Made by a program: the position numbers and the translations under genes
NCBI GenBank assembly: GCA_023151275.1
Contig: JAKLJI010000001.1
Location: forward strand, 458,409-522,408
DNA length: 64,000 nt
Direction: 5' to 3'
Origin: Bacteroidia bacterium
GTDB lineage: Bacteria; Bacteroidota; Bacteroidia; UKL13-3
Shown here: piece by piece, positions 5,851-53,533 of the stretch
How the letters are laid out: each line of letters starts with the position of its first letter
How positions within the stretch are numbered: the stretch's first letter is position 1
Notes under the pieces: generated by a model
What the model was told of the DNA's origin: nothing
Databases searched by the model: none
Seen by the model: the letters and a program-made list of their open reading frames with translations, nothing else

Positions 5851-5912
5851 TAGGCTCAGCACCTAAATGGTGAGAAACTCTATTGCCCAAGCAGAAATGT
5901 AGTCAATTTTAC

Positions 5913-33859: not shown

Positions 33860-35404
33860 TTATGACTGAAAAAATGCAGATATCCATGCTTGAGTGCGCA
33901 GTTTGTTAACCAATTCCGCGGAGATTGGCTTCTTGATAAATCCGATTAGTTCAGGATATTTATCCATAAGCCCGTCCATTTCCAACATGTCTGATTTGCT
34001 CATTAAAACAATCCGTATTTGGCTTTTCAGATTCATTTTTCTGAGTTGCTCCAGAAATTCTTCGAGCACAAAATCAGAAAGGTCGGTATTTACGAAAACC
34101 AGGTAGCTTGACTCCTCCTTGTTGTTATTTTGCAAGGTTGTATACGCCTCCTGGATATCAAAAGCAAACTCCGGATTTGGATGAAATTTGTTGCGCATTA
34201 TAACCGCCTTCTGCAACAGTTGCTCCATTTTAATTTCTTCAACAAGAAGTACATGAAAATGCTTAGAAACGTATGCGTTTTCTGCGGTGCCAATATCCTG
34301 ATTAATGCTTTGGTTTACGGTAAAGGTTTTATCCGCGATGTCATGAATAATGGCATCCAATTCATCAGCAGAGGTTTTAATGGCCTCAATTATTTCTAGC
34401 TCTTGAGCTGAAGGTTCAAGCAGATTCACCAAACCCATAAGCCTTGCTAATGGAGCCCTTACCAAGTGTGATTGGCTCCAGGCAATATCGCGTAAAGTCT
34501 CATTCTGCCGCGTGATTTCATCAATAAATTTAACCCGTTCAGTAATATCGCGGCATATCATCAACACAAGCTTTTGACCTGCAATTTCAACCATTACAGC
34601 TTTGGCTTCCACATTGCAAAGCCTACCGTCCTTTCGTTTGAAAACGGTTTCAAAACTGGCTTCTCCGTCTGCCTTTAGTTGTTGGGTAATCAAATCAAAT
34701 TGGTCTCTAGCCGGAATGGCCTCGAGGTTCATGTAAGGCTGTCCTAATAATTCTTCGCGCGTGTACCCGGTAACATGAAAGCTGGCCTGATTGAGCTCCC
34801 TTATCGGACATTTGTGACTTTCTTCCTGCAATTCAAGCAGGCAAATAAAATCTTTGTTGGCATCAAACAGCGTCCTGTATTTGAGTTCATTGGCCTCAGC
34901 TCGAATCTTTTCAATTTCCAATTGCTCATAACTTTTATTGAGCTCTTCAGATTTCTCTTTCACTGTTTCACTCAAACCAAGATTCTTGATTTTGAGTGCA
35001 TTCATGAGGTAAACATTGGTAAGCAGGTTTTTAATCCTAAGGTCAACTTCTGTTAGGTCGAAAGGCTTAGTTAGGAAATCGGATGCACCTCCTTGAAGCG
35101 CTTGTTTTTTGGCCTCATAAGTTGCATCGGCAGTAAGCACGAGTATGGGCATGTAGCCATCAAGCAGGCCCTTGTTTTTTAACCGTTCCATTAATTCATA
35201 ACCCGAAAGTTCGGGCATCATCAGGTCAAGAATTAATAGATTGGGATTGAATTGGTCGATAATCCCTTCTGCTTCCAAGGGTTTGGTGGTGGTCCGAATA
35301 TTGGAATATCCTTTGAGCTCAAGCAGCTCCTTGAGAATTTCAATATTGGAATGATTGTCATCTACAATCAGAATTCGCGACAGAAGTAATTCAGGGATTT
35401 GCAT
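33860..35404 (-). CDS. REC-PAS-DHp-pseudoreceiver protein lacking the kinase ATPase domain
   Basis: 514 residues. Functional-looking N-terminal receiver (D60, TKPF), coiled coil (about 130-165), one PAS (about 170-285), then a histidine dimerisation segment with H313 in AWSQSHLVRAPLARLMGL. No N, G1 or G2 box follows. The C-terminal about 125 residues align with the receivers of the paralogues at 42.1 and 50.2 kb, but the acidic pair is EE and the phosphoacceptor is N439, so this receiver should not be phosphorylated. Last gene of the operon, one base after the 2190-residue hybrid kinase, from which D60 could be charged. Inferred role: phosphorelay adaptor or regulator. Confidence 0.88.
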   Translation of the reverse strand: MQIPELLLSRILIVDDNHSNIEILKELLELKGYSNIRTTTKPLEAEGIIDQFNPNLLILDLMMPELSGYELMERLKNKGLLDGYMPILVLTADATYEAKKQALQGGASDFLTKPFDLTEVDLRIKNLLTNVYLMNALKIKNLGLSETVKEKSEELNKSYEQLEIEKIRAEANELKYRTLFDANKDFICLLELQEESHKCPIRELNQASFHVTGYTREELLGQPYMNLEAIPARDQFDLITQQLKADGEASFETVFKRKDGRLCNVEAKAVMVEIAGQKLVLMICRDITERVKFIDEITRQNETLRDIAWSQSHLVRAPLARLMGLVNLLEPSAQELEIIEAIKTSADELDAIIHDIADKTFTVNQSINQDIGTAENAYVSKHFHVLLVEEIKMEQLLQKAVIMRNKFHPNPEFAFDIQEAYTTLQNNNKEESSYLVFVNTDLSDFVLEEFLEQLRKMNLKSQIRIVLMSKSDMLEMDGLMDKYPELIGFIKKPISAELVNKLRTQAWISAFFQS

Positions 35405-35405
35405 A

Positions 35406-38400
35406 TCAGGCCAGGTGTTCGTTAATTAGATTCAATAAAACGGAAATATCTATTGGTTTGGTAATATAGCCTTTTGCTCCAATTTTCATGAGTCCTGAAA
35501 TGGTTTCCGGCATTGCATCAGCACTTACCACATAAACAGGTATAGACCGGGTTTCATCATTTTTTAGAAGTTCTGCCAAGAATGTAGAACCATGCCCATC
35601 GGGAAGATTTAAGTCAAGAAAAATTAAATCGGGCTTGTGTTCCAGCGCAAGTTTTAGGGTGTCTTTGCCAAATGGGTGCGAAACAAGCTGTATTCCGGGA
35701 AATCGTAGACTCAACACATTTTCTAGCAATTCAACATTCGATTGGTTGTCTTCGATGTACAAGATTTTGCCTAAATTTTTTTTCAGTTTTTGTTCCTCAT
35801 CCTTAAGGATACTTTCAGCAATAAGATTTTTTTGTTGAACCTTAGAGGTTCTGAATTTTACCCAGAATGTACTGCCTTCTCCGAGCTGACTTTTTACGCC
35901 ATAGATTCCTCCCATGAGGTCTGTAAGTTGTTTAACAACCGCTAAACCTAGTCCTGTACCTTCGGTATTCACAGATTCGTCGCCAACCCTTTCAAAGGGT
36001 TGGAAGATGCGTTCCAAATCTTCTTGTGCGATTCCCTGCCCATTGTCCGAAATTTCAATTCTCATCCAGGTAAAACCCTGAATATCGACAGGGTTAGTTG
36101 AAACATTCACCCAACCTCCCGGTTTGTTGTACTTGATAGCATTTCCTATTAGATTTATCAGAATTTGTTTAATCCGTTGTTTATCGGCATCAATCATCCA
36201 ATCGTTTTCCAGTTTGGGAATATAGAGACTGATTTGATTCTTAGCTGCTGTTGGTTTCAGGAGGTCGCTAACTTCATCAAATACACTTTGAATAGATACG
36301 GGTTCAATGGAAATGGATATTCTGCCGGCTTCAATTCGCGAAATATCCAGCACTTCATTGATTAGATTAAGCAGGTGCTTACCACTTTTAAGAATATGGT
36401 TAACGCTTTTTTGTGCTTGCTGATTCAATTCACCCATTTCGAGCAATTGTGCAAAACCCAGAATGGAGTTCATGGGAGTTCTAAGTTCATGGCTCATGCG
36501 TGACAGGAAATCACTCTTAGCTTTGTTGGCAAGTTCAGCAGCTTCACGAGCTTGTTTCAAGGCATTTTCCTGCATAATTCTATCAGTAATGTCTCGCGCT
36601 GCGGAATAGATAAGCACGCCAACCGGAACACTATGCCATTCAATAAAGCGGAAACTGCCATCGGCTGTGCGGTAACGATTGGTAAAGCTTCGCACCAGGT
36701 TCTGGTTTTCCAGATTTTCTAAGGCCTGATATGTAGCTGGAATGTCTTCCGGATGAACGAAATTCATAAAGGATTGGCCTTCCAATTCTTCAACGGGATA
36801 ACCTAAAATGGTTCCCCAAGCTTTGTTTACTTTAATGAAATGGCCATTGATATCCGCAATGCAAAGCAAGTCAAGCGCCACATTGAAGAAGGTCTCCAAT
36901 TCTCGGGTTTTGAGTTGAAGCTCTTGGGTGCGTTCTTCAATTTTGGATTCAAGTCCGGAGTTCAACAGGCGGATTTCCTCTTCTGCTCGCTTCCTTTCCG
37001 ATACATCCTGTTTGATACTCATGTATCCGGTTATCTCACCGTTTTCATTGGCAAGCGGACTAATGCTCGTACTTTCCCAGTATTCAGTGCCATTCTTCCT
37101 CCGGTTAATCCATTCGTAATCCCAAGTTTCGCCTTTGTTAAGCGTTTCCCAAAGCTGCTTATACGCTTCTTTACCGGTTTTACCTGATTTGAAAATGCGG
37201 GTCTTTTTTCCAATCAATTCTTCAGGTTTGTATCCGGTTATTTTTAATGTACCCGGACTGGCATACAAAATTTCGGTTTCAAGGTTGGTTATGATAATCG
37301 CAACCGGACTTTGCTCTATGGCCTTGGTTAGTTTACGAATTTCTTCTTCTTGTAATTTTCGTTCGGTGATATCACGAACCATGCGAAGGACCCTGTTTTG
37401 CTCAAGCGGAACAATGCGACTCTCAAAGACCTTATGGCTTTGGTCGATATCAAATGCAGGGTATTCAATGGTTGTAATGATTTGGTTGCTTAGTGCTTCC
37501 TTAATTTTTTCAACCACTTTTTTACTGTATTCAGGTGATAACCAATTTGAGATATTGGTGTTTACATGGCCTGAATAATCACGTGTGCTGCTTACAGAAC
37601 TGGATCTTACATAATCAATGAAATTGCCTTGTTCATCGGAGATAAATACAGGGTCGGGAAGGGCATCAATAATTGCACTTAGTTGCTGGTTTTGTTGTTT
37701 GATTTGCTCTTCTTGTTGCTTTTGTTGAGTAATATTTATGTTTACTCCTTTTAGCCCAACTAGTAATTTGTTTTTGAAAATAGGAACGATGCTGTTTCTT
37801 ACCCATTTAATTCTTCCATCGGGCATTAGCAGTCTAATTTGGATGGTTTCTTCCTGCTGAAAACGGTTGATTTTTTCTAGGGTTTCATCAATCATATATC
37901 TGTCATCCGGATGGATAATGGACAAGTAGTTTTCAAAGGAAGGTGGATGTTCCTCTCGCTTACGTTCTATTAATTTGTAGTATGCATTAGAAAGTATCGT
38001 CTGTTGACTTGTAAAGTTGTATTCCCAACTTCCCATTTCAGCAATTTCTTGCGCATAGTTCAGTTCATCTTCCCGTTTTCTAAGCTCTTGTTCGGTTTGC
38101 TTGAGCGCAGAGATATCGATGGCTGTTGCAGCAAAATACAGGGGTTTGTTTTCTTTCATGATTAGCTTACCACTCATCAGAGTTGGAAATACATTCCCGT
38201 CGCGTGTAACATGATCCACTTCTTCGGCAGCAAATCCACCTTTTTGTTTCATTTCCTCAAGCAAAAAGAATACACGTGGTAATTGACTTTCATTGTGGAA
38301 AACAGTAAGGTTTTTCCCCAATAGCTCATCAGTTGAATAGCCATGCATTTCTGCAAAGGTTCTGTTGATGTAGGTAATTGTGCCATCCATCAACGTAATT

Positions 38401-41400
38401 GCTGTTCCGTAATTTGCTTCATCCGAAATCATCCGGAACTTATTCAATTCTTCCAGGGCCTGTTTTTTCTCAGTAATGTCGATATCAGAGCCCCTGAAGC
38501 CCATGATTTTTCCCACTTCATTGTAAAAGGGAATTCCATTGGTTGAAACCCAAATTAACTCACCACTTTTTTTAACAATGGGGTTTTCATATTCGCTTAT
38601 GGGTTGTTCTTGCTTAAAAAGTTCTTCAGCCTCTTGTTTATAAGCCTCTCTGATTTCTTCGGGATGGAGGTCGTAAAAGTACATTTTGCCGACAAGTTCT
38701 TCGGGTGTGTACCCGTAAACTTCGGCGGCCAATTGGCTTACGTATGTATATAAGCCTTCATTGTTTACTTCCCAAACCACAGTTTTACTTTGGCTTACCA
38801 CTTGGCTAAAGCGCTCTTCACTTTTCTTGAGTGCATTTTGAATGGCCTTAACTTCGGTAATTTCCTGCCAGCTTACAAAAGTTATATTCCCGTCTTTTTG
38901 ATTGATACTGGTTAAGGTAACCTCGCATTCAATGGTTGTACCATCTGATTTTTCATGTAGCCAATCAAAACTAAGTTTGCTTTTCTGTTTTGCAATTTCA
39001 AGATTCCGTATAACCAGCTCCTTACTAAGTACACCGTTCTTCTGAAACTCAGGTGAAATGTCGGTTGGTGTTTTTCCAACAATTTCCTCATAGGAATAAC
39101 CTAATAACTTGCAGGCGGCCTCATTGCAATCCGAGTACCTCCCGTCAATCATAATGAGGTGGGCATCCGGTGAACCAAAGAACAAACTCTTGAAGCGTTG
39201 CTCACTTTCTTCCAGCTTTAATCTTGCTTGCTTTTGGTCTGTGATATTGGTTGAATTCATCAGAGCTGCATAGGCATTTCCTTGTTCATCGCGAACAGGC
39301 TGTATGCTGGTTCTTAGCCAAAGCGTTTTTCCATTGATAAGCAAGGAGGGCTCAAACACTTTACCTGCATTGTTTTGAATAACCCAGGTAATGTTGTTGA
39401 TGATGTCCTTAAATTCTTCAGGTGAAACCAGTTCACCGGTTGACCTTCCAATTATTTCATCCGGGGTTTTGCCAAAATTTTGTGCGGCTATGGTATTGCA
39501 AAAGAGAATGATTCCTTCCGGGTCATAAAGCACCACGATGGAGTCTGTGCTTTCCACCAGGCTTCGGTATTTTTCTTCACTTTTTTGAATGAGTTTTTCG
39601 GTCCTTTTTCTGTCGGTAATGTCAAGGCCCATACATTGCATCTCAGAGGGCACACCATCATCGTTAGTGAGGCAAACAAATTCCCAAAGTGTCGTACGTA
39701 TGCTGCCATCTTTTTTGGGTTTATCCAGTTCAACCTGAATTACTTTTCCGGGTTCTGCAATACATGCATAAACGGCCTTTCTCATTTTGGGCCGTTCATA
39801 GTCCATTACCGTAAGCTCTGCATCGCCAGGTCTATGTTCTCTTCCTTCAAACAGAAAGCCACAATCCTCCTCAAACTTCTTATTCCAATAGGTATGCCTT
39901 CCCTGCATGTCGGTGCGCATCACATAAAGGGTTTGGTTTTCAACCATTTTTTCAAGACGTTCCTGGTTGCGTTTGAACTCAAGATCGTATGTTTTTTTGG
40001 TAGTGATGTCGCGGGTTACTCCAATCCAACCAATAATTTTTCCATTTTCATCCAGGTTCGGCTGAAAGTTGGTAGAGAACCAAAAAAGGTCCCCATTGCC
40101 TTTGTAGGCTTCTCCTTCGAGGTTCCAGGTTTTTCCAACAACTGAGCCTTCTTTTTGAATAGCTTGGCTCATTTCAAACCGAATGGAAAGTAGCTTGTCG
40201 TAAGTATCGGTGGTGTATCTTTCTGGGTCCTTCTTGGCTATGAATGATTCTGGACTTTCATCAAAAACCCGTATTACGGAGGGTGAAACATAGATAGGCT
40301 TAAACTCCGAGTCTGCTATCAAAATCATGTCCGAACTGTTTTCGGTGATTCTTTTGAATAAGGTTTCTTTTTCTTTCAGGTAATTGATTTGGTTGATGCG
40401 GTTGTGAATATTCACCAGCATTTCGGCAAATACCAACAACATGTCTTTCTCGATTTCGGTAAATACATGTTTCTTTTTTACGGCATCCAACCCAATAAAA
40501 CCTATGCAAACTCCTTGGTTCATGAGCGGAACCGTAATCATACTTTGGATGCCCTGAGGTTCCAGAATTTGGCGCATTGGATGCTTTTCTTCCAAGGCAA
40601 GCACATCCTGCACCTCCATAATTTTCCCGGTTTTGTGGGCATTAACCCAATCGGGAATATGATCAACCGGGAAATCTTGTAGGTTTTGAATTTCTGGGCT
40701 TATACCTTCTGCACACCATTCATAGGTATTGGTGCAGGTTTGTGCTTCAAAATTGTATTCAAAAATATAGAAGCGGTCGGTCTCAAAGTTCTCACCCAGC
40801 TCCTTCATGGTTTGCTGAATTTGGCAATCCACTTCCTCCAATGGAAGATTGATAAAGGTTTGAGCGTTTCGGGTTAATAATTTGTGACTGATATTCTGTT
40901 GTTGAAGGTTCTTTTGAGCTCTTACCTGCTCACTTACATTGTAAAAACTGGTAACAAAACGAAATGGAGTTTTTTCTCCCTCTTGGTATTCGGGTACCAC
41001 AGAAACTTCAAGCCAAAGCTTAGTGTCATTTTGCTTTAAGGATAGACCAATCAATTGAGAATATACCGGCTTGCCACTTGTTTTTGCTTTGATAAATGGA
41101 TGATCCTCTAATGCTATTGGCGTAAGGTCCGGATTTAGAATAGTCCAATCCGGACATGCATACGAGCAGCCTATAAGTTCTGATTTCGTCCTGCCGAGCA
41201 TTTTTGCTGCGGCAGAATTAGCTGCTGTAATAATTCCATCCGGGTTATGATACAGGATTCCAATTGAAATTTTTTCAAGTATATCCAGCAGTTGATTTTC
41301 ATCTTTTGTCTGGCTGGAAAAAACAAAGAGGCGAAGCGCTGTTTCATCCTGTGTGAAATCGAAATAGCTAACATGAATCGGAACTTTTTTTCCATCACTT

Positions 41401-41978
41401 TGCTGGAAGGTGGATTGGAACTGAAAACTGCTGTGTTCATTCAAAAAGAGTTCAGCATTTTCCGGATATTCAATGCCGGAAAACCCTAGGCCTTCAAACA
41501 AGGAGGAGTTTGGATTATCAGCTAGGTCAAATCCGGTTAATTTCTGATAAGCTTTGTTTGCATATACCAGTTTCTTTTCAGTTTTGTGGTAAACCAAAAC
41601 CGGTTCTGCAATTGATTTGAACAGATCTTGATTCTGTAAGCCATCGCCTCTGTTATTCGAAGGATTGGTTTCATTTTTGGCTTTCACCAATTCAAGTAAA
41701 TAGGATTCCTGATTTTGCTTAAGGTACGCAATCCAGTATCCCTGGTTTTCATCAATCAGGTTTATCCGAGCAGGGTTTTCTCCATTTTCAAGTCCTTGTT
41801 GCAAGGAAACGAACCAGGGTGTTTTGCATAGCTCTTCGGCATGCTGAAAAGGAAAGGCTGATTTTGGCTCTTTCCAAATGAGGTTAAAACCAGCATCCAA
41901 TAGCACAATACTACCTTTATCAACGGGATAGAGGGTATTGTGTTTTAGCTCGGTGAGTTGCCCTGTGCGGTATTCCAT
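35406..41978 (-). CDS. Giant soluble hybrid histidine kinase: about 12 PAS, GAF, HisKA, HATPase, REC
   Basis: 2190 residues without TM helices. About two PAS domains after a PAS-like N-terminus, a GAF domain (about 350-530), some ten more PAS/PAC units (to about 1805), a dimerisation domain with H1830 in MSHELRTPMNS, HATPase_c (NLIGNAIKY, DNGQGI, GTGLGLAV) and a receiver with D2122. It is the only protein in the five-gene operon with an ATPase domain and hence the probable phosphate source. It has its own -7 box 32 bases before the ATG, after the only sizeable gap in the operon (125 bases). Confidence 0.93.
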   Translation of the reverse strand: MEYRTGQLTELKHNTLYPVDKGSIVLLDAGFNLIWKEPKSAFPFQHAEELCKTPWFVSLQQGLENGENPARINLIDENQGYWIAYLKQNQESYLLELVKAKNETNPSNNRGDGLQNQDLFKSIAEPVLVYHKTEKKLVYANKAYQKLTGFDLADNPNSSLFEGLGFSGIEYPENAELFLNEHSSFQFQSTFQQSDGKKVPIHVSYFDFTQDETALRLFVFSSQTKDENQLLDILEKISIGILYHNPDGIITAANSAAAKMLGRTKSELIGCSYACPDWTILNPDLTPIALEDHPFIKAKTSGKPVYSQLIGLSLKQNDTKLWLEVSVVPEYQEGEKTPFRFVTSFYNVSEQVRAQKNLQQQNISHKLLTRNAQTFINLPLEEVDCQIQQTMKELGENFETDRFYIFEYNFEAQTCTNTYEWCAEGISPEIQNLQDFPVDHIPDWVNAHKTGKIMEVQDVLALEEKHPMRQILEPQGIQSMITVPLMNQGVCIGFIGLDAVKKKHVFTEIEKDMLLVFAEMLVNIHNRINQINYLKEKETLFKRITENSSDMILIADSEFKPIYVSPSVIRVFDESPESFIAKKDPERYTTDTYDKLLSIRFEMSQAIQKEGSVVGKTWNLEGEAYKGNGDLFWFSTNFQPNLDENGKIIGWIGVTRDITTKKTYDLEFKRNQERLEKMVENQTLYVMRTDMQGRHTYWNKKFEEDCGFLFEGREHRPGDAELTVMDYERPKMRKAVYACIAEPGKVIQVELDKPKKDGSIRTTLWEFVCLTNDDGVPSEMQCMGLDITDRKRTEKLIQKSEEKYRSLVESTDSIVVLYDPEGIILFCNTIAAQNFGKTPDEIIGRSTGELVSPEEFKDIINNITWVIQNNAGKVFEPSLLINGKTLWLRTSIQPVRDEQGNAYAALMNSTNITDQKQARLKLEESEQRFKSLFFGSPDAHLIMIDGRYSDCNEAACKLLGYSYEEIVGKTPTDISPEFQKNGVLSKELVIRNLEIAKQKSKLSFDWLHEKSDGTTIECEVTLTSINQKDGNITFVSWQEITEVKAIQNALKKSEERFSQVVSQSKTVVWEVNNEGLYTYVSQLAAEVYGYTPEELVGKMYFYDLHPEEIREAYKQEAEELFKQEQPISEYENPIVKKSGELIWVSTNGIPFYNEVGKIMGFRGSDIDITEKKQALEELNKFRMISDEANYGTAITLMDGTITYINRTFAEMHGYSTDELLGKNLTVFHNESQLPRVFFLLEEMKQKGGFAAEEVDHVTRDGNVFPTLMSGKLIMKENKPLYFAATAIDISALKQTEQELRKREDELNYAQEIAEMGSWEYNFTSQQTILSNAYYKLIERKREEHPPSFENYLSIIHPDDRYMIDETLEKINRFQQEETIQIRLLMPDGRIKWVRNSIVPIFKNKLLVGLKGVNINITQQKQQEEQIKQQNQQLSAIIDALPDPVFISDEQGNFIDYVRSSSVSSTRDYSGHVNTNISNWLSPEYSKKVVEKIKEALSNQIITTIEYPAFDIDQSHKVFESRIVPLEQNRVLRMVRDITERKLQEEEIRKLTKAIEQSPVAIIITNLETEILYASPGTLKITGYKPEELIGKKTRIFKSGKTGKEAYKQLWETLNKGETWDYEWINRRKNGTEYWESTSISPLANENGEITGYMSIKQDVSERKRAEEEIRLLNSGLESKIEERTQELQLKTRELETFFNVALDLLCIADINGHFIKVNKAWGTILGYPVEELEGQSFMNFVHPEDIPATYQALENLENQNLVRSFTNRYRTADGSFRFIEWHSVPVGVLIYSAARDITDRIMQENALKQAREAAELANKAKSDFLSRMSHELRTPMNSILGFAQLLEMGELNQQAQKSVNHILKSGKHLLNLINEVLDISRIEAGRISISIEPVSIQSVFDEVSDLLKPTAAKNQISLYIPKLENDWMIDADKQRIKQILINLIGNAIKYNKPGGWVNVSTNPVDIQGFTWMRIEISDNGQGIAQEDLERIFQPFERVGDESVNTEGTGLGLAVVKQLTDLMGGIYGVKSQLGEGSTFWVKFRTSKVQQKNLIAESILKDEEQKLKKNLGKILYIEDNQSNVELLENVLSLRFPGIQLVSHPFGKDTLKLALEHKPDLIFLDLNLPDGHGSTFLAELLKNDETRSIPVYVVSADAMPETISGLMKIGAKGYITKPIDISVLLNLINEHLA

Positions 41979-42009
41979 TGTGTGTTTTTTAGGCAGATAC
42001 GAATTTCTT

Positions 42010-42017
42010 CAAAGGTA
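42010..42017 (-). promoter_or_regulatory. Internal -7 box ahead of the giant hybrid kinase
   Basis: TACCTTTG on the minus strand matches TAnnTTTG. It sits in the 125-base gap between the 1576- and 2190-residue genes and predicts a 5' UTR of about 25 bases, so the two distal genes may be expressed separately. Confidence 0.45.
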
Positions 42018-42103
42018 GGTTTCTCTTGTTGGTGAAGATTGCCAATTGATTTAAAAAATAAGCCTTTTTGCTCCAATTTTAAATCTGGTTATCAGCTTTC
42101 TGA

Positions 42104-45100
42104 TTAGCCATTTGGTAACTTTAATCGGGGGTGGTTTTTAATGTCTGCAAGAATTGAACTCGTAATTGGTTTTGTTAAGTATTCAATCACCTGTGGGTAC
42201 TGTTGAGCCTTCAACCTATCCTGTATTTCTACAGATGAAGTTAATATGACAACATTGATTTCGCAGTCGAGCGGCGCTTTAGTGATTTCATCCAAAAACT
42301 CCCAGCCGGTCATTTTTGGCATATTGATATCAAGGAATAGCAGGAAGCGGATAGATTTGTCGTTTTTACTTCTCAAAAATTGAAGCGCCTCCAGACCATT
42401 GGGCATCAACCTGGGATTTTGGCTTAAGCCTGATTTCTGAACCATGGTTTTATGAATGGTTTGAATCATCTCATCGTCATCCACCAAAAGAACTTCTTGT
42501 GTTAAGGTTTGAATGTTCTTAGGTTCAGTTTTTTCTCCTTTGGGGTTGCTGTGATTAAGGTTGTTGGCCACGTAGGTTTTTTCTGCAATGTTTTTAATTA
42601 CCTTATCCAGTTCATTCGCAGAATCTTTAACAGATTTGATAAGTTCATTCTCCGGAAGAATACTGAAATCTTTTTCCACAAAAACATCCATCAATCCCAT
42701 AAGCCTTGCCAATGGAGCCCTAACCACATGCGATTGTGTCCATGCAATATCACGCATTACCTTGTTTTGATTTTCCAGCGCTTCAAAGTATTGGTTGCGT
42801 TCGGTTATATCATGTACAATTTCATGCACCAATTCAAGATTTCCAGATTCAAGTAGGGTAGAGAAGGCTTCCACATCCCGAACAGTGCCGTCTTTCAGGC
42901 GGTGCTTGAGTTCGGTACGGATATGTTTTTCAGTGCGTAGCTTTTCAATTTTTGATTTTACTTCATCTGTTTTTGGATTGATATTTTTGAGGTTTAAGCG
43001 AAGAAATTCCTCCCGATTGAAGCCATAGAATTGCAGAGCTGCATTGTTTACATCAACCATATTCAATGAAGAGGCATCCAGTAGATACATGGGTGAGGCA
43101 TTGGCTTCAAAAAGATTACGGAAGCGCTGTTCACTTTGTCTAAGTTCCTGAATTGCTTTTACCCTCGAGGTAATATCCATGAAGGTATAAACCGCATATT
43201 CATTAAAATTCATATAGCCTATATCCAGGTACTTGTAGCTTCCATCTTTGCACCTCACTTTGGTTTCCATGGAGACATAAGCGGATTTGGCATGCTCTGC
43301 TTCCTGAACAAGTTTCAAGCGTTTTTGCTGGATGGAAATTCGATAGGCTTCATCCGGATAAGCAAGCAATTGCCAGGTAGTTACATCTGGAATTTCACCT
43401 GGGCTATAACCGGTAATCTCAGTGAATTTTTGGTTTACCATGATTACCTGATGATTTGGGGCTACAGTCGACATACCAATTGGAGAGTATTCAAAGAGTT
43501 CTCTGAAACGGGTTTGACTGGTGCTGAGCTCCTGTTCAACACGCTTGAGTTGGGTGGTTTCAAAACTTACACCCGCAGTTCCAATAATTTTTCCTTCCGA
43601 ATTTCTAACCGGGAACTTGTTGGAGAAAAAGTAGCGAATCGCTTTTTCTTTATCCGATTTCTGCTGCCCGGAGGTCCAAGTTTCTGGATGCCATTCTTCA
43701 ACCTGAATGGTATTTCCCTGCTGAATAACCTGCTGGTCGTGGCTCAAAAACATTTCGGCGATATCGGTTGGAAACAGGTCAAAATCGGTTTTACCTACGA
43801 TATCTTCTGCGGCAAGCCCTAAGGTTTTTTCAAATTGTTGATTAACCAGCTCGTAGCGTCCATCCAAATCTTTTCGGTAAACGGTAGCTCCTGAAAAGTT
43901 AATAAGGTCGCTAAGCAAGAATTCACTTTCTCTGAGCTCCAATTCCGCTTTTTTACGTTTGGTGATATCCGAGCAAACACCAATATAACCGGTAAGTTTA
44001 TGGTGCTCATCCCGAATAGCTTCCAGTTTTATTTCAACCCAGATTCTTTTACCTGAGCTATGAATGCCTTCCAGCTCACGCACAGGTATAGGCTCAATGC
44101 GTTCCTTTTGCATTCTAAGTTTTTCAATGCTTTCCAAAATTATTTGCTGCGACTCTTCGGTATAGCATTGTAAGAGTGCATTGGTTTTGTATTCTTCCGG
44201 ACTAATACCAAATATTTTGTACGAGGAAGGACTCACATAAGTAGCATTCATGTTGGCATCTATGGTAAATACCATGTCCGACATGTTTTCACTGATTTGG
44301 CGGTATTTGCGTTCACTGTCTTCCAGCTTCCACAAGGCCTCCTTCTTATCAGTGATGTCTTCTTTTACGGCAATAAAGTGAGTGATTTCCCCTTTGTTAT
44401 TCTTTAATGGACTGATAGATGCTTGTTCCCAGTAAAAGCTTCCATCCTTTTTCTTGTTCAGAAACTCGCCTGTCCAGGTTTGCCCATGCGTGATATTGTT
44501 CCATAGTTTTTCGTATTCTGTTGAAGGCTTATTCCCCGATTTTAATATTCTTGGATTTTGTCCAAATGCTTCATCGCGGCTATAGCCTGTAACTTCACTG
44601 AATTTTTTGTTTACATACTCAATTTCACCTGCCAGGTTGGTGATTACAATGCTTACTGGGCTTTGTTCTACGGCAAGGGATAATTGACTTATTCTAATTT
44701 CATTTTCTTTTCGTTCGGTTATGTCTTGATGGGTACCTGCCATGATAAGCGGTTTTCCATCTGAGGTGTACTCAAATACTTTACCTTTATCAAGTATCCA
44801 AATATAATGCCCATCTTTATGCAGCATGCGGTATTCGGCTTCATAGAATTCGGCTTCTCCCTTGAAGTAGTCTTCAAGTTTTTTGTTCACGCCATCCAAA
44901 TCTTCCGGATGCGTTAATCTGTCGAAAGTTTGAATGGTTATAGGGAACAGGTCCAATAGGGTATATCCCAAAATAGCAGCCCAGCGTTCGTTGAAAATGG
45001 TTTCGCCGGTTTGCACATTCCATTCCCAGGTACCTACATTGGTACCTTCAATAACATTGTTTAGTCTGTCTCTTTCTTTTTGAAGGGCTTCTTCAAACAA

Positions 45101-46834
45101 ACGTAATTGATGGATGTCCTGAAAGGTGCCAACCAATTTGATGCATTTGCCATTTTCGTATACTGTTTTTCCAATGGTACGCACCCATTTTTTATTACCT
45201 TTCGCGGTAATGATTTGGAGTTCCAAGTCATATTCCAAACCGGTTTCAATGGCTGTTTTTACGGCCCGTTCAAGCACAGCCCGACTAAAATCTGCATCGT
45301 AAAAAAGAATTGCTGTTTCTAAATTTGGTTCAAAATCATCGGGCAGTTCATGGATTGCTTTTGTTTGGTTTGACCAGGTAAGCTTTTGATTAATTAAATC
45401 GAGTTCGAAACTTCCTATTTTGGCCATATTTGCCGTTTTTTCCAGCATTTCCCGGGTTTGGTTCAATTCCATTTCCCGTAGTTTGCCTTCGGTAATGTCT
45501 CTAGCGATACCACTGAAGTTAACAATATTGCCATTGGAGTCATATACTGGTCCTGAGGTTGAATTGATCCAGCGAACACCTTTGGTTGGATGAATAATTC
45601 GGTAAGTCTGCTCCTGCCTTTCAGATTTTGAAGGGTTGGAAAGCCTTTGCTTTACGATTTCAACATCATCCGGATGCAGTATTTTGAAAAAGGTTTCAGA
45701 GCGATTATTAAACTCATTAGGCTTTATGCCAAACAGGTTCTCAAAGGAAGGGCTTAAGTACAGTAGGTTTTTATTTTCTTTGTCTCTAAGCCAGAACACC
45801 TCTTCAATGCTTCGTGCAATGGCGTTAAATTGGTTGAGGTTTTTAGTTGACTCTTCTTCTGCCACCTTCAAACGGGTAATGTCAAGAACAGTACCCATCG
45901 TACGCTGAGGTTTTTTCTCTTCATCAAAAATCGTTTGGCAATGCAGTAATAAATGTTTCCCGGTTTTTTGCGCTGTAACAACCCGAAAATCAATTTCTAG
46001 TTCAATTCCATTTAGCAAATGGTTTTCAAATGCATTTTCAAAGCCTTGCCAATCATCGGGATGCACCCTTTCAAAAAAATCACTCAGAAGGCCATTGAAC
46101 TTTTCGGGTTCTATGTCCATGATTTTGAACATTTCCGAACTCCAAGAGAAAATGCCGGATTCCGGCTCGTATTCCCAGAATCCGAGGTCCGCCATTTTAT
46201 GAATTTGTCTCAGGCGCAAGGAGGTTTCCTGAATTTTTTGGTTTTCCAGCTTCAGTAGTTCGTGGGCTAGTTGTAGCTCGAGCTGCGTTTCCCGTTTTGA
46301 TGAAATATCCGAAAGACTAATGCGCATCAAGCGTTCTTCATTTTCTGATTCCGAAATTGAAGTTTGGCAATTCACATCTGCGTAGAACTCTTCCTCCTTG
46401 CCTAAAAACTTGAGCTCAGTTGATGAAACACTTTCCTCCTGCTGCCAGGCTTTTTTAAGAAAAAGATACCATTGATCCTGGTAATCACTTGCTATGAAAT
46501 CGTGAATTTCTTTACCAACAATTTTTTCTTTGGATACACCAAATAGCTTCTCGCATTTCTTATTGCAATCCAGAATAACGGATTTTTGATTCAATGCCAG
46601 GTAGCCAATTGGAGCCTCATCAAACAGCTCCTGATAGCGTTTGCTTGTGGCTTCTATTTGCTCATAACTATGGGCAAGTTCCTTGTTTTGAAATTCAAGT
46701 TCCTGTTGGTAGATGCTTAGGGTTTCCAGAATTTCTTCGATGGGCTTTTCTTTTAGTTTATCAATATCCAAACCCGGATTGCCCAATGCTTTCCGGATAA
46801 GGTCTTGCAGTTCTTGATTGGTTGAGACTTTCAT
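42104..46834 (-). CDS. Ten-PAS protein with DHp and receiver but no ATPase domain
   Basis: 1576 residues, soluble. A short N-terminal coiled coil (QQELEFQNKELAHSYEQIEA) of the kind that accompanies CheB/CheR-linked sensors, ten PAS/PAC units (about 55-1335), a histidine dimerisation segment with H1369 in AWTQSHVVRAPLARLMGL, and directly a receiver (about 1450-1570) with DDD, D1502 in FLDINMP and TKPI. The 80 residues between DHp and receiver are too short for HATPase_c and contain no N/G boxes. It therefore cannot autophosphorylate in the usual way; a His/Asp phosphotransfer module is the likely function. Starts six bases after the CheB-CheR gene. Confidence 0.9.
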   Translation of the reverse strand: MKVSTNQELQDLIRKALGNPGLDIDKLKEKPIEEILETLSIYQQELEFQNKELAHSYEQIEATSKRYQELFDEAPIGYLALNQKSVILDCNKKCEKLFGVSKEKIVGKEIHDFIASDYQDQWYLFLKKAWQQEESVSSTELKFLGKEEEFYADVNCQTSISESENEERLMRISLSDISSKRETQLELQLAHELLKLENQKIQETSLRLRQIHKMADLGFWEYEPESGIFSWSSEMFKIMDIEPEKFNGLLSDFFERVHPDDWQGFENAFENHLLNGIELEIDFRVVTAQKTGKHLLLHCQTIFDEEKKPQRTMGTVLDITRLKVAEEESTKNLNQFNAIARSIEEVFWLRDKENKNLLYLSPSFENLFGIKPNEFNNRSETFFKILHPDDVEIVKQRLSNPSKSERQEQTYRIIHPTKGVRWINSTSGPVYDSNGNIVNFSGIARDITEGKLREMELNQTREMLEKTANMAKIGSFELDLINQKLTWSNQTKAIHELPDDFEPNLETAILFYDADFSRAVLERAVKTAIETGLEYDLELQIITAKGNKKWVRTIGKTVYENGKCIKLVGTFQDIHQLRLFEEALQKERDRLNNVIEGTNVGTWEWNVQTGETIFNERWAAILGYTLLDLFPITIQTFDRLTHPEDLDGVNKKLEDYFKGEAEFYEAEYRMLHKDGHYIWILDKGKVFEYTSDGKPLIMAGTHQDITERKENEIRISQLSLAVEQSPVSIVITNLAGEIEYVNKKFSEVTGYSRDEAFGQNPRILKSGNKPSTEYEKLWNNITHGQTWTGEFLNKKKDGSFYWEQASISPLKNNKGEITHFIAVKEDITDKKEALWKLEDSERKYRQISENMSDMVFTIDANMNATYVSPSSYKIFGISPEEYKTNALLQCYTEESQQIILESIEKLRMQKERIEPIPVRELEGIHSSGKRIWVEIKLEAIRDEHHKLTGYIGVCSDITKRKKAELELRESEFLLSDLINFSGATVYRKDLDGRYELVNQQFEKTLGLAAEDIVGKTDFDLFPTDIAEMFLSHDQQVIQQGNTIQVEEWHPETWTSGQQKSDKEKAIRYFFSNKFPVRNSEGKIIGTAGVSFETTQLKRVEQELSTSQTRFRELFEYSPIGMSTVAPNHQVIMVNQKFTEITGYSPGEIPDVTTWQLLAYPDEAYRISIQQKRLKLVQEAEHAKSAYVSMETKVRCKDGSYKYLDIGYMNFNEYAVYTFMDITSRVKAIQELRQSEQRFRNLFEANASPMYLLDASSLNMVDVNNAALQFYGFNREEFLRLNLKNINPKTDEVKSKIEKLRTEKHIRTELKHRLKDGTVRDVEAFSTLLESGNLELVHEIVHDITERNQYFEALENQNKVMRDIAWTQSHVVRAPLARLMGLMDVFVEKDFSILPENELIKSVKDSANELDKVIKNIAEKTYVANNLNHSNPKGEKTEPKNIQTLTQEVLLVDDDEMIQTIHKTMVQKSGLSQNPRLMPNGLEALQFLRSKNDKSIRFLLFLDINMPKMTGWEFLDEITKAPLDCEINVVILTSSVEIQDRLKAQQYPQVIEYLTKPITSSILADIKNHPRLKLPNG

Positions 46835-46839
46835 AGAAA

Positions 46840-49800
46840 CTAAGAATTTCTGATATCAAGGGATAGTATAATGGCATGAATAGGCTCTGGTTCTTTGTTC
46901 GATTTTTTTATTCTGAACCTAAATTTTATCAACTTGCCTTCTTTAGTAGTAATCGAAAAATTGTTCTGCTGAAATAGTTCTGTATGCTGAAGTGCTTCTT
47001 CATAGAGGTTATAGTTTTCAGCTACTTTTCTTCCCCCGATTTTGAGTTTTAATTTTGCAGACGGAAAGGGTTTTCCAAGTAACTCCTCCCGCTCCACATC
47101 GAGTATCTTAGCAAATTGAGTGTTTAGCACTCTTAAGCTGTTTTCAGGACTAACAACAACCAAAGGGGTATCCAATAAATCGAAGGTAGATTCCAGGGTT
47201 TTTTCCATGTTGAGTTTATCGAGTTCTATGTCTTTCAATCGACTCACGTCTATCACGGTCCCAACAAGGGTTAATGGCATCCCTTTTTCATCCCTTTCGG
47301 TAATCACGCCCCTGTCGAAATACCAACCATAAGAGCCATCTTTGCGTTTGATACGGTAAGTAGAAATCCATTCAGCAGCTCTTCCTTCCAGGTGTTCTCG
47401 CATATCCTGCATGGTTTTTTCATAGTCATCCGGATGAATGAGGGCAGTAATACCATAAATGTCTTTTGGAAACTCTTCCAGTGTATAACCCAACATGGTT
47501 GCTTTTCGATCATCCATCAGCACTTTGCCACTGTGTCTATCCCATTCCCACCATGCCATCCTGCCCATTCCTAAAGCTTCCTGTAGTCGTTTGGTTGTAA
47601 GCTTAAGTTGAATTTCACCGGTTTTGATTCGGGTGATATTTACAAAGGTGATAAGGATTCCCTCTATGGCATTGTTTTCTGTGCGGTAAGGCAAAATACG
47701 TACTTGATAAATGGTTCCATTTGCAGCCTGAATTTCATTCTCAATAGGCTGAAGGTTTTCTGCCACCTGTTCAATATCCTTAACCATTCCGGGATAAACA
47801 TCTCCCAAGGAAATATGCGCAATGGGCCTTCCGCTGTCTGTAGGAAGAATATGGGTGATATTGGATACCAAAGGAGTAAGCTTTCTGATACACAAGCGTG
47901 AGTCAAGATAGAGCGCCCCTACCTCTGTATTTCTAAGTAGGTTATGAATATCTGTATTGGTCTTGGTAAGCTCGTTTATTTTGCTTTGAAATTCTGAGTT
48001 AACGGTAAACAATTCTTCGTTTACAGATTGTAGTTCCTCGTTTGTGCTCTGCAATTCTTCGTTTGAAGCAATTAATTCTTCATTACTGGATTGCAGTTCT
48101 TCGTTGGCTGTTTCTAATTCCTCTACAGTGGCTTGCAAACTCACTTTGGTGTATTGCAATTCACGTTTAATTTCTTCGTAAGCATTGAGGTTGATTCGTA
48201 CTTCTGTACCGGTATCCGTGTTTTCATTATCAGTAAGGGTTGGTTCTTCTTTGAAGGAAATAAGCTGTTGTGTTCCGCTTCCGGTCTGAAGATTTCGAAT
48301 ATCTACTCTTATTTTTCGTTTTGCTTCCTGGTCAAATAAGCTGACACTTTCACTGAGAAAGGCCATGCGTTCTTTTCTTGCTTTTTGAATCAAGGTTTTC
48401 AAAACAACTCCAAATTCAGGTTGCAAGTGGTCATACAAGATTTGCGAGAACTTTCCGGGTCTTAAGGTAAGGTAGGGTGTTGTATCGTTTATCAGTTGAA
48501 GCAGATTGTCTTGTTCATCAATAATTACTGTTGGTGGAGCAAGAATATTCAGCAGATTTTCCTGCGAGAATTCGCTTCGAATTGCTTTTGAGCGGTGTTC
48601 TTGTGGAATAGTCGAATTCGGATTTATTTCCTGCATTTCAGGAACCTGCAGATGCGATTGACGAATGGTATCATGCAATTTAAAATTTCGTTTTACCCGA
48701 TAGATTTTCCAGCGATTGTCAACGGTTTCAAAGGCATCAGACAAGCTCCCCAAGGTTTCGCTGCTTCCCATGAATAGATAGGAACCGGGTTTAAGGCTGT
48801 AAAAGAATGAGGTGAGGAGCTGGTTTTGCATTTCGGGTTTGAGGTAAATGAATAAATTACGACAAACCAATAGGTCGAGTTTTGAAAATGGCGGATCCTT
48901 GAGCAAATTGTGTCGGGCAAAAACAATTGATTTGCGGATGTTTTCATTAATTTGATATCCGGCTTCTCTTCGCGTGAAGTATTTATTAAGTCGTTCTTGA
49001 TCAATGTCTCCGGCTATGCTGTCTGAATAGAATCCACTGCTAGCTTGTTCAAGTGCATGCTTGTCAACATCGGTGGCAAATATTTTCAAGTCACAGGATA
49101 AATTATTTTTATCCAGGTAATCCTGCACCATCATGGCCAGAGAATACACTTCTTCTCCGGTTGAGCAACCTGTAGACCAAATCCGGATAGATGGGGGTCT
49201 GTTTTCAAGAAGTGCAGGAATCACGTGATTCTCCATGGTTGCAAAGGCTTGTCCATCTCGGAAGAAGCTTGTAACACCAATGAGGAGTTCACGGTATAAA
49301 GTTTCTTTTTCTTTGGTAGATGAATTTAAAAATTCAAGGTATTCATCAATACTGTTCAGGCGATTGATGCTTACCCTTCTTTCAAGCCTGCGAATGATGG
49401 TGTTCTCTTTGTACCAGGTGAAGTCAATACCGCAATGGTCGCGTAAGATCATGCAGATTTTGGCGATTGTTGTGATATCTCGGGTGAGAATATTTTCGAT
49501 GGGTTTATTGCCCTGTGAAAAGGGGTGACGGATAAAGTTCAATAAAGCTTCTGGCATCTGTGCCGGACTTAGGATAAAATCAACCAAGCCGGTAGATATG
49601 CAGCTCTTCGGCATCCCATCAAAGCGCGCAGAGGAAGTATCCTGGGCCATAATCATGCCTCCTGCCTCTTTTATGGCTTTTGTTCCAAGGGTTCCGTCTG
49701 ACCCTGTTCCAGATAATACAATACCAATGGCTTTGTTGCCTTTTTCTTTTGCCAATGATTTAAAAAAGATATCTACCGGAAGGTTTAGACTTTTGGTGTG

Positions 49801-50133
49801 ATTCTGCGGTTCAAGGAATATTTTATTGTGAAAGACCGAAATGTTTTTACCGGGTGGAATAAGGTAAACATGATTGGACTCTAATTCCATAAGATGCTCG
49901 GCAATATGAATGGCCATGCTGGTGTGCCTTGCCAGCAGCTCATTCATTAAGCTTTTGTAATCCGGTGAAAGGTGCTGGATTACCACAAATGCTAGTCCGG
50001 AATCAACCGGCATTGCTGTAAACAATTCCTGAAGGGCGTCAAGACCACCGGCAGAAGCTCCAATGGCTACAATATCTGGACTCGCTTTTTGGACAATGGT
50101 TGGGTCTGATTTTTTTCGTGTATTCTTTTTCAT
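46840..50133 (-). CDS. CheB-CheR-PAS fusion protein
   Basis: 1097 residues. A CheB methylesterase domain (about 18-205) with the triad S27 (GASAGG), H54 (IQHLSP) and D146 (SGTGSDGT). A CheR methyltransferase (about 220-490) with SAM-binding TGCSTGEE at 321-328 and [13 protein letters not shown]-like segment, a heptad coiled coil of repeated NEEL units (about 668-718) and three further PAS units. No receiver in front of CheB and no kinase core. Such fusions modify or sense through methylation, but no MCP, CheA or flagellar gene is in the window. It is 16 bases downstream of the LOV/PAS protein and 5 bases upstream of the ten-PAS protein, so it shares their operon. Confidence 0.93.
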
Positions 50134-50149
50134 CGAAGGGTAGTTAGAC

Positions 50150-53100
50150 TTAAAAAAAGCCGATGAGTTTTGGGTGCTTTTTGATTGAATCTAGCAATTC
50201 TGCATTTAATGGTTTGGTTTGATAATCAATTACCCGATTGAAATTATTCGCCCTTAGCTTGTCGTCAAGGTCGATAGAAGAGCTTAACATGATAACCCGA
50301 ATATCTCCCTTGAATTCATGGTTTTCCAATTCAGTTAGGAATTGCCATCCATTCATGCCGGGCATATTGATGTCGAGGAATATCAAGAAGTTTTCGTCTA
50401 ATTGAGCTCTACCAATTAGTGAATCTAATGCAGATTCTGCGGTAAAATAAACCTCAGGTTCTTGCGAGAAACCTTGCTTTTTGATAACCGCTTTTTGGAG
50501 AAGCTGAACCATTTTGTCGTCATCAATCAGTAACACATGCAGCGGAGTTTCTTTGGCCAATGTGCTTGTTTTAGCTTTGGTTTCAGTAGAAATTTCTTTT
50601 AAACTGTTTGCTACAAATGATTTTTCTGCAATGTCTTTGATAATGGTATCAAGTTCATTGGCAGAATCATTCATCATGGAAATGATTTGCTCTTGGCTCA
50701 AATTTTCCTGGCTCGAATCTTGAAGTAATTCCATCAAGCCCATTAAGCGAGCCAATGGGGCTCTTACCACATGAGATTGAGTCCAGGCAATGTCTCTGAA
50801 TATTTTATTCTGTCTTTCAAGTGCCTTGAAATAATTATTCCTATCGGTAATATCATGCACCGTTTCATATATTACCTCTTTGCCATTGAAGTTAATTAAA
50901 CTGCAAAATACCTCTACGTCAATTAGACTATTGTCTGCCTTACGGTGTTTGAATTCAAACCGAACACCTTTTTTCTGACGGAGTTCATTGAAAAGGTGAT
51001 TAAAATCGCTGATGCTCGCATTGATACAACTCAGGTGTTTCCCGATGACATCCGATTTTTTGTAGCCATAAAAGCTTTCACATGCAGGATTAATCTCTGT
51101 AATGTTTCCGGTAAGCGGGTCAATCAACAGCATCGGTATGATATTTCCTGTGAACAGGCTTTTGAAGCGCTCCTCACTGTCGCGTAGGGCTTGTTTAGCT
51201 TCTTCTTCAGCCGACACGTTTTTGCTAAACACAGAAGCACCTGTAACCCGGTTGTTGATGATTATTGGGTTCATCGAAACATCTACATAGTAGGTATTTA
51301 TTTCGGTAGGAATTCGTTCGGTAAAATGAATTTTCTCACCAGCAAAAACCTTGTCATATCTTTCTTTCCACCTTTCTTGAAGCATTTTCGGCAGTAAAGA
51401 GATGATGGAATCACCCGGCAATAAGAAGTGACCAAACGCATTTCTAAACTCATTTGAGAAAACCTCATTTGAATAAATAACCCGGTAATGTCTATCAACA
51501 GACCAAACACTTTCTGAGCTTGAATTGAGTAAGGCTTTAAGATTTGCTTCGCTTTCAAGCAAAGCCAATTCAATGTTTTTTAATTGGGTAATGTCTTTTT
51601 GAACGCCTAAGAAGTGCGTTAATTTTTTAGCTTGATTGAAGATGGGGGATATGCTCAGCTGGTTGTAGAATAGTTTACCTTGTTTGGTATAATTTTTTAG
51701 AACCACCGAGATGGGTTTGGCCTGACGAATGCATTCCCTAAGGAGGTCTAATCCGTTTTGGTCTTTGTCTTCCGATTGAAGGAAGCGACAATTTTTTCCA
51801 AGAACATCCTCTTTGGTATAGCCAGTTAAGTAACAAAAGGCGTCGTTCACATAAATCAGCGGAAAATCAGGTTTCTCAGCAGTTGCCAATGTTATGCTTA
51901 CTGTACTCGAATCAATGGCTTGTTTAAGCAGGTAAATTTGTTCTTCGTGTTTCTTTTCCTGAGAAATATCTGTATCAGAGCCTTGATAGCCAATCAAGTT
52001 TCCAGCCTCGTCAAATAAGGGAAAGCCGTTTGTTGAAACCCAAATTTGTTCTCCGGATTTGGTTTGAATAGGATTAACCAAGCTTCTAAAACTCTCTCTT
52101 CTGGCCAGAACTTTTTGTACATTTTCAATAAACTCTTCCCTGCCTTGAATCGGATGCAAATCAAAATAGTACAGTTTTCCTTCCAGTTCTTCCGGAGCAT
52201 AGCCAACAAGTTCTTTGCTTGATTTACTTACATAGGTAAACAGTCCGCTTTGGTCAATTTGCCAAGCCATGGTTCGGGTATGAATGCCAATTTCTTCAAA
52301 GCGATTTTGGGCTTCAAGCATTTGCCTTTCGGCATCTTTCCGTGCACTGATATCTTTTAAAAATGCAGTGAACTGAAATCGACCCATAAATTCCACTTTA
52401 GACAAAGACAAATGAACCCAAACCATGGAGCCGTCTTTGCGCTTTACCTCAAACTCTCTACCTGATCCGGCAACCCGGTTGATACCAGTATTCAAATTGG
52501 TTTCAATGGCATGGTCGTGGGCAGCCCGGTCTTGCATGGGCAAAACGATATTTACGTTTGCCCCAATAAGTTCTTCCTTGGAGTAGCCGAGTAATCTTTC
52601 TGTGGAAGGGTTCGCAAAAATGATTTCTTTTTTATCGTTAATGGTAATAACCGCATCAACTGCCTGCTCAAGCGTGAGTTCCATTAGCCTGTGCAGTTCT
52701 TCAATTTCGTTTTTCTGATTTTCGAGCAGTTTTATTTTTTCTTGAAGCTCCAGCTCTGAGGCTATCAAATCTGTGATGTCGGCTACAACTCCAAAAGAGC
52801 GAATAGGATTGTTGTGCTCATCAAAACTTGTTTTGCAGCGTTCTCGGATGTATTTGGTTTGTCCCGAGTTGGTGATAATGCGGTGCACGATATCATATCT
52901 GCTTTTGTGTAAAAGGTGATTGTCGTAGGCTTCCTTTACTTTTTGCCTGTCATCGGGATGAATAAATTTGAGAAATGCTTCATAGCTATCATCAAATTCA
53001 TTGAGCTTGCAATCAAAGAGTGTAAAGACCTCATCCGACCAAAAAAGCCGATTCGTGGCCAAATCAAGCTCCCAGTGGCCCATCTTGGCAACCTCGTAAG

Positions 53101-53533
53101 CCTGTTTAAGCAAGAGCTCACTTTGACTTGCCCACTTGATGGCTTCATTTTGGAGAAGTGTTTTTTCTGATTTTGATGGCTCCGCGTGCAGGAACAATTG
53201 AAGTTTTTCGAGTCCGCCTTCTAAAAATCGTAAGCCGGAAATGGAGATAGGTCTGCTTTTCTGCCTCGGTCTTGTTAAATGAATCCTTAATTCTTCTCCA
53301 TTGTCTAAAGCGCCTTCCGGACGAATAAAGTCATTGAATTTATCCGCATAGTTTGAATCAATCAAGGTTGAAAAGGCTTGGCCAATAAAGGAGTTTGCAG
53401 CTTTGTTTACCAGCAATTCAAAGGCCTTATTGCACGAAAGAATTGCGCCCGATTTAAGCTCCAGCTGAAGTGCCGGCATCGGGATTCTTTCCTGAATGTT
53501 TTCGTAGCTTGTTCCTGTGAGTTGCTTTTTCAT
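50150..53533 (-). CDS. LOV/PAS-array protein with DHp and receiver but no ATPase domain
   Basis: 1127 residues, soluble, first gene of the operon. Seven PAS-type units; the fifth (about 535-649) is a LOV domain with GKNCRFLQ, photoactive C582, and flavin contacts R583, Q586, R599, N614, N624 and Q645 at the same offsets from Cys (+1, +4, +17, +32, +42, +63) as in phototropin-type LOV domains. Then a dimerisation segment with H921 in AWTQSHVVRAPLARLMGL, and a receiver with DDD, D1054 in FLDINMPGM and TKPL. No N/G boxes lie between. Expected to be a blue-light-responsive phosphotransfer protein; other PAS inputs unknown. The start follows a divergent intergenic region with no obvious TAnnTTTG on this strand. 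Confidence 0.92.
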   Translation of the reverse strand: MKKQLTGTSYENIQERIPMPALQLELKSGAILSCNKAFELLVNKAANSFIGQAFSTLIDSNYADKFNDFIRPEGALDNGEELRIHLTRPRQKSRPISISGLRFLEGGLEKLQLFLHAEPSKSEKTLLQNEAIKWASQSELLLKQAYEVAKMGHWELDLATNRLFWSDEVFTLFDCKLNEFDDSYEAFLKFIHPDDRQKVKEAYDNHLLHKSRYDIVHRIITNSGQTKYIRERCKTSFDEHNNPIRSFGVVADITDLIASELELQEKIKLLENQKNEIEELHRLMELTLEQAVDAVITINDKKEIIFANPSTERLLGYSKEELIGANVNIVLPMQDRAAHDHAIETNLNTGINRVAGSGREFEVKRKDGSMVWVHLSLSKVEFMGRFQFTAFLKDISARKDAERQMLEAQNRFEEIGIHTRTMAWQIDQSGLFTYVSKSSKELVGYAPEELEGKLYYFDLHPIQGREEFIENVQKVLARRESFRSLVNPIQTKSGEQIWVSTNGFPLFDEAGNLIGYQGSDTDISQEKKHEEQIYLLKQAIDSSTVSITLATAEKPDFPLIYVNDAFCYLTGYTKEDVLGKNCRFLQSEDKDQNGLDLLRECIRQAKPISVVLKNYTKQGKLFYNQLSISPIFNQAKKLTHFLGVQKDITQLKNIELALLESEANLKALLNSSSESVWSVDRHYRVIYSNEVFSNEFRNAFGHFLLPGDSIISLLPKMLQERWKERYDKVFAGEKIHFTERIPTEINTYYVDVSMNPIIINNRVTGASVFSKNVSAEEEAKQALRDSEERFKSLFTGNIIPMLLIDPLTGNITEINPACESFYGYKKSDVIGKHLSCINASISDFNHLFNELRQKKGVRFEFKHRKADNSLIDVEVFCSLINFNGKEVIYETVHDITDRNNYFKALERQNKIFRDIAWTQSHVVRAPLARLMGLMELLQDSSQENLSQEQIISMMNDSANELDTIIKDIAEKSFVANSLKEISTETKAKTSTLAKETPLHVLLIDDDKMVQLLQKAVIKKQGFSQEPEVYFTAESALDSLIGRAQLDENFLIFLDINMPGMNGWQFLTELENHEFKGDIRVIMLSSSIDLDDKLRANNFNRVIDYQTKPLNAELLDSIKKHPKLIGFF

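Follow-up and report, generated by a model that had tools for sequence, protein, structure and literature searches.

Spo0B, ChpT and PhyT are dimeric DHp proteins derived from histidine kinases, in which a conserved histidine shuttles phosphate between receivers and which do not autophosphorylate (PMC3433190, PMC5898713, PMC9981736); PhyT receives its phosphate from a single-domain receiver (PMC3433190, PMC5898713, PMC9981736). In archaea, "HisKA, no HATPase" proteins and response regulators of the REC-(PAS)n-HisKA type have been catalogued, and P2CS has a class named "possible incomplete histidine kinase" (PMC5847659). The split kinase CheA3/CheA4 carries its histidine and its ATPase on separate proteins (PMC3591291), and in hybrid histidine kinases a single chain carries a PAS array, an H-box and a C-terminal receiver.

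Here we analyze three proteins, P0001, P0002 and P0003, encoded within a window of 64,000 nucleotides of Bacteroidia DNA, which is the whole stretch that was examined. An earlier note on this window had described them as sensor-controlled phosphotransfer proteins rather than dead kinases and had known of no characterized member. We found no experimental work on the DHp clade to which they belong in the open-access literature, and to that extent the statement stands, although the category as such had already been described for archaea (PMC5847659).

Gene organization and domain composition of the locus

The locus consists of five genes, all of them on the minus strand, to which all coordinates of its genes and domains given below refer. 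In the order of that strand, P0003 (50150..53533; 1127 aa) has a PAS array that includes predicted heme-PAS and LOV domains, an ATPase-less DHp domain and a receiver; P0005 (46840..50133) is a CheB-CheR-PAS fusion without a receiver; P0002 (42104..46834; 1576 aa) has a PAS array, an ATPase-less DHp domain and a receiver; P0004 (35406..41978; 2190 aa) is a hybrid kinase with a PAS/GAF array, HisKA (H1830), HATPase and receiver (D2122) domains; and P0001 (33860..35404; 514 aa) is composed of a receiver, a PAS domain, an ATPase-less DHp domain and a pseudo-receiver. The open reading frames of P0001, P0002 and P0003 are present where the earlier note had placed them. Its description of these genes as operon-mates is plausible: they share one strand, the intergenic gaps are 16, 5, 125 and 1 nt in the order given, and a terminator-like site was not found on that strand within the 125-nt gap that precedes P0004, although this gap could offer room for a promoter. 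Elsewhere in the window, a minus-strand gene at 21439-22599 encodes a cytidylyltransferase-like domain fused to a GHMP-kinase C-terminal domain.

The histidines H313 of P0001 (34466-34468), H1369 of P0002 (42728-42730) and H921 of P0003 (50771-50773) are located, as had been reported, in the box W[ST]QSH[VL]VRAPLARLMGL. The domains around them (residues 289-362 of P0001, 34319..34540; residues 1345-1421 of P0002, 42572..42802; residues 897-972 of P0003, 50618..50845) have the H-box and two-helix hairpin of a DHp domain, and profile searches matched them to DHp domains of known structure, 7n0e among them (E 7e-7). The Pfam HisKA profile gave two matches, in P0001 and P0003, both under its 26.9-bit cut-off (20.6 and 25.3 bits), with P0002 unlisted, and the HPt profile PF01627 is absent among the Pfam matches of the three proteins. 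The family-specific profile described below matches all three at E-values of 1e-31 to 1e-36.

A receiver had also been reported within about 80 residues of each histidine, and this holds in every case: it starts 79 residues after the histidine in P0002 and P0003 (residues 1448 and 1000, as defined by Pfam) and 72 residues after it in P0001 (residue 385, as defined by a local receiver model). The C-terminal receivers of P0002 (42149..42493; D1502 at 42329-42331) and P0003 (50192..50536; D1054 at 50372-50374) are canonical, with the aspartate, the Thr/Ser and the lysine all present. The C-terminal domain of P0001 (33917..34252) has a receiver-like fold in the structure model, but it is a pseudo-receiver, unable to act as an acceptor, because Asn439 replaces the aspartate (VFVNTDLS) and the acidic pair is E-E. 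At its N-terminus P0001 carries another receiver (residues 11-123; 35036..35374), which is canonical and keeps D60. The PAS arrays that had been attributed to all three proteins are found in P0002 and P0003, whereas P0001 has a single PAS domain plus the N-terminal receiver. The earlier note had overlooked this receiver and the dead state of the rear one, as well as the two recognizable sensor types, LOV and heme-PAS, in P0003.

Sensor domains of P0003

Residues ~284-402 of P0003 (52328..52684) are predicted to form a heme-PAS domain of the DosP/FixL type (E 2e-24 for DosP and ~1e-16 for FixL). His339 and Arg359 align with the proximal His and distal Arg heme-contact positions of DosP, and the domain probably binds heme. 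A LOV domain is predicted at residues ~535-660 (51554..51931), with Cys582 in the sequence GKNCRFLQ; its best match is the short LOV protein 7r5n (E 3.9e-34), and other matches include YtvA and phototropins. The presence of the GxNCRFLQ motif with its reactive cysteine suggests flavin binding. The predicted stimuli of P0003 are blue light and oxygen. A PAS-array/DHp gene located directly before a gene for a CheB-CheR-PAS fusion without a receiver, as in the pair P0003-P0005, was also observed in two genomes of another class (fusion genes at L154:3719-7207 and L155:133-3525). The DHp protein that adjoins CheB-CheR-PAS in L154 also has a LOV motif.

Absence of the ATPase domain

Pfam gave no HATPase match in P0001, P0002 or P0003, and a local HATPase model run with all filters off produced no E-value below 1 on any of them. 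The same model matched 7/7 true kinases of the window at E<1e-22, and Pfam identified HisKA, HATPase and receiver domains in P0004. The local model cleanly separates the three proteins from the seven kinases, and the results uphold the original observation that they, unlike the other kinases of the window, have no HATPase domain. The AlphaFold model of P0003 (pLDDT 81) consists of PAS domains, a two-helix hairpin, a linker of ~15 residues and the receiver, and that of P0001 (pLDDT 72, with only moderate values in the hairpin region) is arranged as receiver-PAS-hairpin-receiver; as modeled, neither protein has room for an ATPase domain. A divergent ATPase hidden in the linker, which had been considered at the outset as a matter for structure prediction, is ruled out by Pfam, by the unfiltered HATPase model and by the P0003 structure model, in which the linker is too short to show anything of the kind. 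Foldseek searches with the tail of P0003 returned LOV/PAS kinases, the matches being dominated by the PAS domain and helices.

A family of ATPase-less DHp proteins in Bacteroidota

A family profile built from 24 members matched 93 of the 395 genomes of the same class at E<=1e-12, and more members are found in other classes of the phylum. The census covers Bacteroidota genomes; apart from one ordinary Vibrio kinase, a scan of the whole collection returned no more than three members of the family. The 100 regions examined yielded 107 ORFs, which encode 109 DHp domains. The search for the QSHxVRAPLARLMGL segment across Bacteroidota, suggested together with the original observation, recovered the same box in more than 100 proteins, and none of the 109 domains has an ATPase of its own. 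Since the box recurs in so many proteins the motif is far beyond chance, and since it stands in 100 distinct contexts the sample is not clonal. Nearly all family members terminate 52-80 residues past the histidine, most of them right after the DHp domain, and a residual ATPase-like C-terminal domain is absent.

The histidine is conserved in 109/109 domains (profile-based selection may slightly favor sequences that bear it, though one substitution would not lose a match of 70-120 bits), as is the proline at H+5 (109/109); the serine at H-1 and the arginine at H+3 are each kept in 107/109 domains, and an aspartate of helix 2 (D66) in 104/109. Conservation of the box may in part be structural, given that Pro, Ser and Arg nearly match His.

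In a tree that also included 32 DHp domains of kinases, all ATPase-less members, including those of L124 and L125, fall into one clade (110 DHp domains; support 0.90) whose neighbors are the HNLRAPL-type kinases of the window; the tree is limited by short alignments and constitutes one line of evidence only. Judging from the profile matches and this tree, P0001-P0003 are members of a large uncharacterized Bacteroidota clade and not oddities. The proteins of L124 (L124:1929-4940) and L125 contain an ATPase-less DHp domain followed by a complete PAS-HisKA-HATPase kinase in one chain, with a single-domain receiver gene next to them. They were considered as members with their own ATPase and rejected, the HATPase belonging to the separate complete kinase further along the chain. 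In L076 and L093, from another genome of the same family (G330), ATPase-less DHp genes stand side by side in groups of two or three. The window genome also has a 330-aa open frame (L009; contig C11, ~645 kb) that combines a PAS-like region with a TSHALRLPVAN box and a fused receiver and appears to encode a more distant small DHp-receiver protein.

Association with receivers and a recurrent operon

A single-domain receiver gene is located <=250 nt downstream of 24/107 DHp genes, compared to 1/310 control genes taken from the same regions (Fisher p 1.6e-14), and these 24 genes come from ten or more taxonomic families. The fused receivers of P0002 and P0003 score 90 and 83 bits (mean of the top five) against the downstream single-domain receivers and 19-22 bits against N-terminal receivers. 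Because they are closest to the downstream class, the fused receiver and the adjacent receiver gene appear to be two forms of one pairing. The same fused DHp-receiver architecture is present in L092, from another family. The phosphoacceptor aspartate is kept in 70/70 linked receivers; for 68/107 DHp genes no receiver, fused or adjacent, was detected within the stretch examined.

Among the relatives with a REC-PAS-DHp architecture (n=23), a kinase gene lies just upstream in 20 cases, and a single-domain receiver gene lies directly upstream in 14 and downstream in 11. Several families share the arrangement kinase, receiver, REC-PAS-DHp, (receiver), as in L156. Five kinases of this recurrent module that we scanned have PAS/GAF/CHASE sensors and an intact HATPase domain. 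Most kinases of the module have ASHDLQEPLR boxes, whereas the box of P0004 is HELRTPM. The genes of P0004 and P0001, 1 nt apart, resemble a fused version of the module in which the kinase is of another HisKA type. In the N-terminal receivers of 18/23 REC-PAS-DHp proteins (L156, L074, L077, L103, L095, L116 and others), Lys-Asp is found in place of the usual receiver Lys-Pro.

Predicted function of the ATPase-less DHp proteins

We propose, with a probability of roughly 0.6, that P0001-P0003 are sensor-controlled DHp histidine phosphotransferases acting in His-Asp-His-Asp relays. The dimeric DHp hairpin has kept its phosphoacceptor histidine and would be unable to phosphorylate itself because the ATPase is gone. 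Its histidine would accept a phosphoryl group from a receiver that a true kinase has phosphorylated and would pass the phosphate to, or exchange it with, a second receiver, giving the sequence H(kinase)-D-H(DHp)-D, with the PAS domains gating the middle transfer step. The participating receivers would be the products of separate small genes in most relatives with a recognizable partner and the domains fused behind DHp in P0002 and P0003; in P0001 the candidate is the receiver fused in front, the rear one having no aspartate. The likely phosphate donor in this locus would be the P0004 receiver (D2122), acting on D60/H313 of P0001 and on H1369/H921, a reasonable assignment in view of the operon position of P0004 and the recurrent arrangement with a kinase upstream. 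The original reading as phosphotransfer proteins and not dead kinases is thus strengthened by comparison, through the invariant histidine, the aspartate of the linked receivers, receiver adjacency or fusion and the recurrent operon; the transfer itself, like its direction, is what we infer from them. This account also fits the near absence of HPt domains from the window genome, which has 56 HATPase and 57 receiver matches and 1 HPt match (contig C74). A broader and more tentative idea is that sensor-gated DHp phosphotransferases might replace HPt across the phylum, signals acting on the transfer step and not on the kinase; in this locus P0003, through its LOV (blue light) and heme-PAS (oxygen) domains, would then gate the flow from the one hybrid kinase to several receivers.

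HisKA kinases depend on an acidic residue at H+1 for their kinase activity and on Thr/Asn at H+4 for their phosphatase activity (PMC3510030). In P0001, P0002 and P0003, H+1 is Val/Leu and H+4 is Ala, and within the family the acid is retained in 12/109 domains and Thr/Asn in 0/109. These losses argue against self-phosphorylation and against phosphatase activity of the HisKA type. Alone they do not prove the loss of such chemistry, because a sister kinase of the window with an intact ATPase (5883-9641; HNLRAPL box) likewise lacks both residues, with Asn at H+1 and Ala at H+4.

The same positions bear on two other explanations. It is possible, but unlikely, that the proteins act as signal-controlled phosphatases or phosphate sinks, in which the DHp domain dephosphorylates the phospho-receiver at a rate set by the PAS domains. 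Galperin et al. proposed such activity for the archaeal "HisKA, no HATPase" proteins (PMC5847659), the linkage to receivers fits it equally well, and back-transfer to the histidine would drain the receivers; however, the Thr/Asn required at H+4 (PMC3510030) is missing in 109/109 domains, and the histidine is invariant though a pure phosphatase need not keep it. We give still less credence to a split kinase, in which the ATPase of another kinase would phosphorylate the DHp domain directly within heterodimers, as CheA4 does with CheA3. This mode of action is established in other systems (PMC3591291), sister DHp domains with ATPases are encoded in the window (5883-9641 and 22621-23802), and a true kinase precedes 20/23 REC-PAS-DHp genes. 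However, these linked kinases have intact H-boxes of their own and are therefore not ATPase-only partners, and H+1, where the HisKA autokinase requires an acid (PMC3510030), is mostly hydrophobic or neutral. Least probable is a purely structural role, with an unphosphorylated DHp stalk for dimerization and signal transmission that sets the PAS domains beside the receivers: the near-equal conservation of Pro, Ser and Arg, the loss of the rear aspartate in P0001 and the dimerization role proposed for archaeal REC-PAS-HisKA proteins would suit it, but an invariant histidine, an aspartate in all 70 linked receivers and repeated linkage to one receiver class would not be expected.

Proteins that combine PAS domains with a conserved phosphoacceptor histidine and no ATPase are a common protein type in Bacteroidota. 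Because the Pfam HisKA match often falls under the cut-off in the family members scanned, annotation may list such proteins simply as PAS proteins. Should they be gated phosphotransferases, Bacteroidota two-component networks would hold a layer of control that is missed by kinase counts, and the family would be a candidate for the HPt step that is missing for many hybrid kinases. With the linked receivers, the recurrent four-gene operon and the light and oxygen sensors predicted in P0003, the question is open to standard phosphotransfer assays.

Comparison with known systems

P0001-P0003 resemble Spo0B, ChpT and PhyT in anatomy: they have a DHp domain with an invariant histidine and no competent ATPase, and they are linked to receivers that can be phosphorylated. 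An ATPase-like fold persists in ChpT, and PhyT still has a degenerate ATPase domain, whereas in P0001-P0003 this part is wholly missing. Spo0B likewise retains an ATPase-like domain. The present clade also differs from all three in its QSHxVRAPLAR-type H-box, in its attached PAS sensors and in the receiver, which is often fused.

The archaeal and P2CS class, which is defined by sensors and a HisKA-like domain with a conserved histidine and no HATPase domain, has the same composition as P0001-P0003, and the likeness is one of architecture (PMC5847659). That class was catalogued without experimental study, while the present clade belongs to Bacteroidota, is monophyletic in our tree and is tied to one particular receiver class and to the recurrent operon with its kinase. 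Histidine and ATPase are on separate proteins in CheA3/CheA4, as they are here, but CheA3 has a P1 domain of the HPt type instead of a DHp domain, and no ATPase-only partner is linked to P0001-P0003. Hybrid histidine kinases share with our proteins the arrangement of PAS array, H-box and C-terminal receiver; unlike them, P0001-P0003 have no ATPase, and their receiver is of the stand-alone class seen downstream of their relatives.
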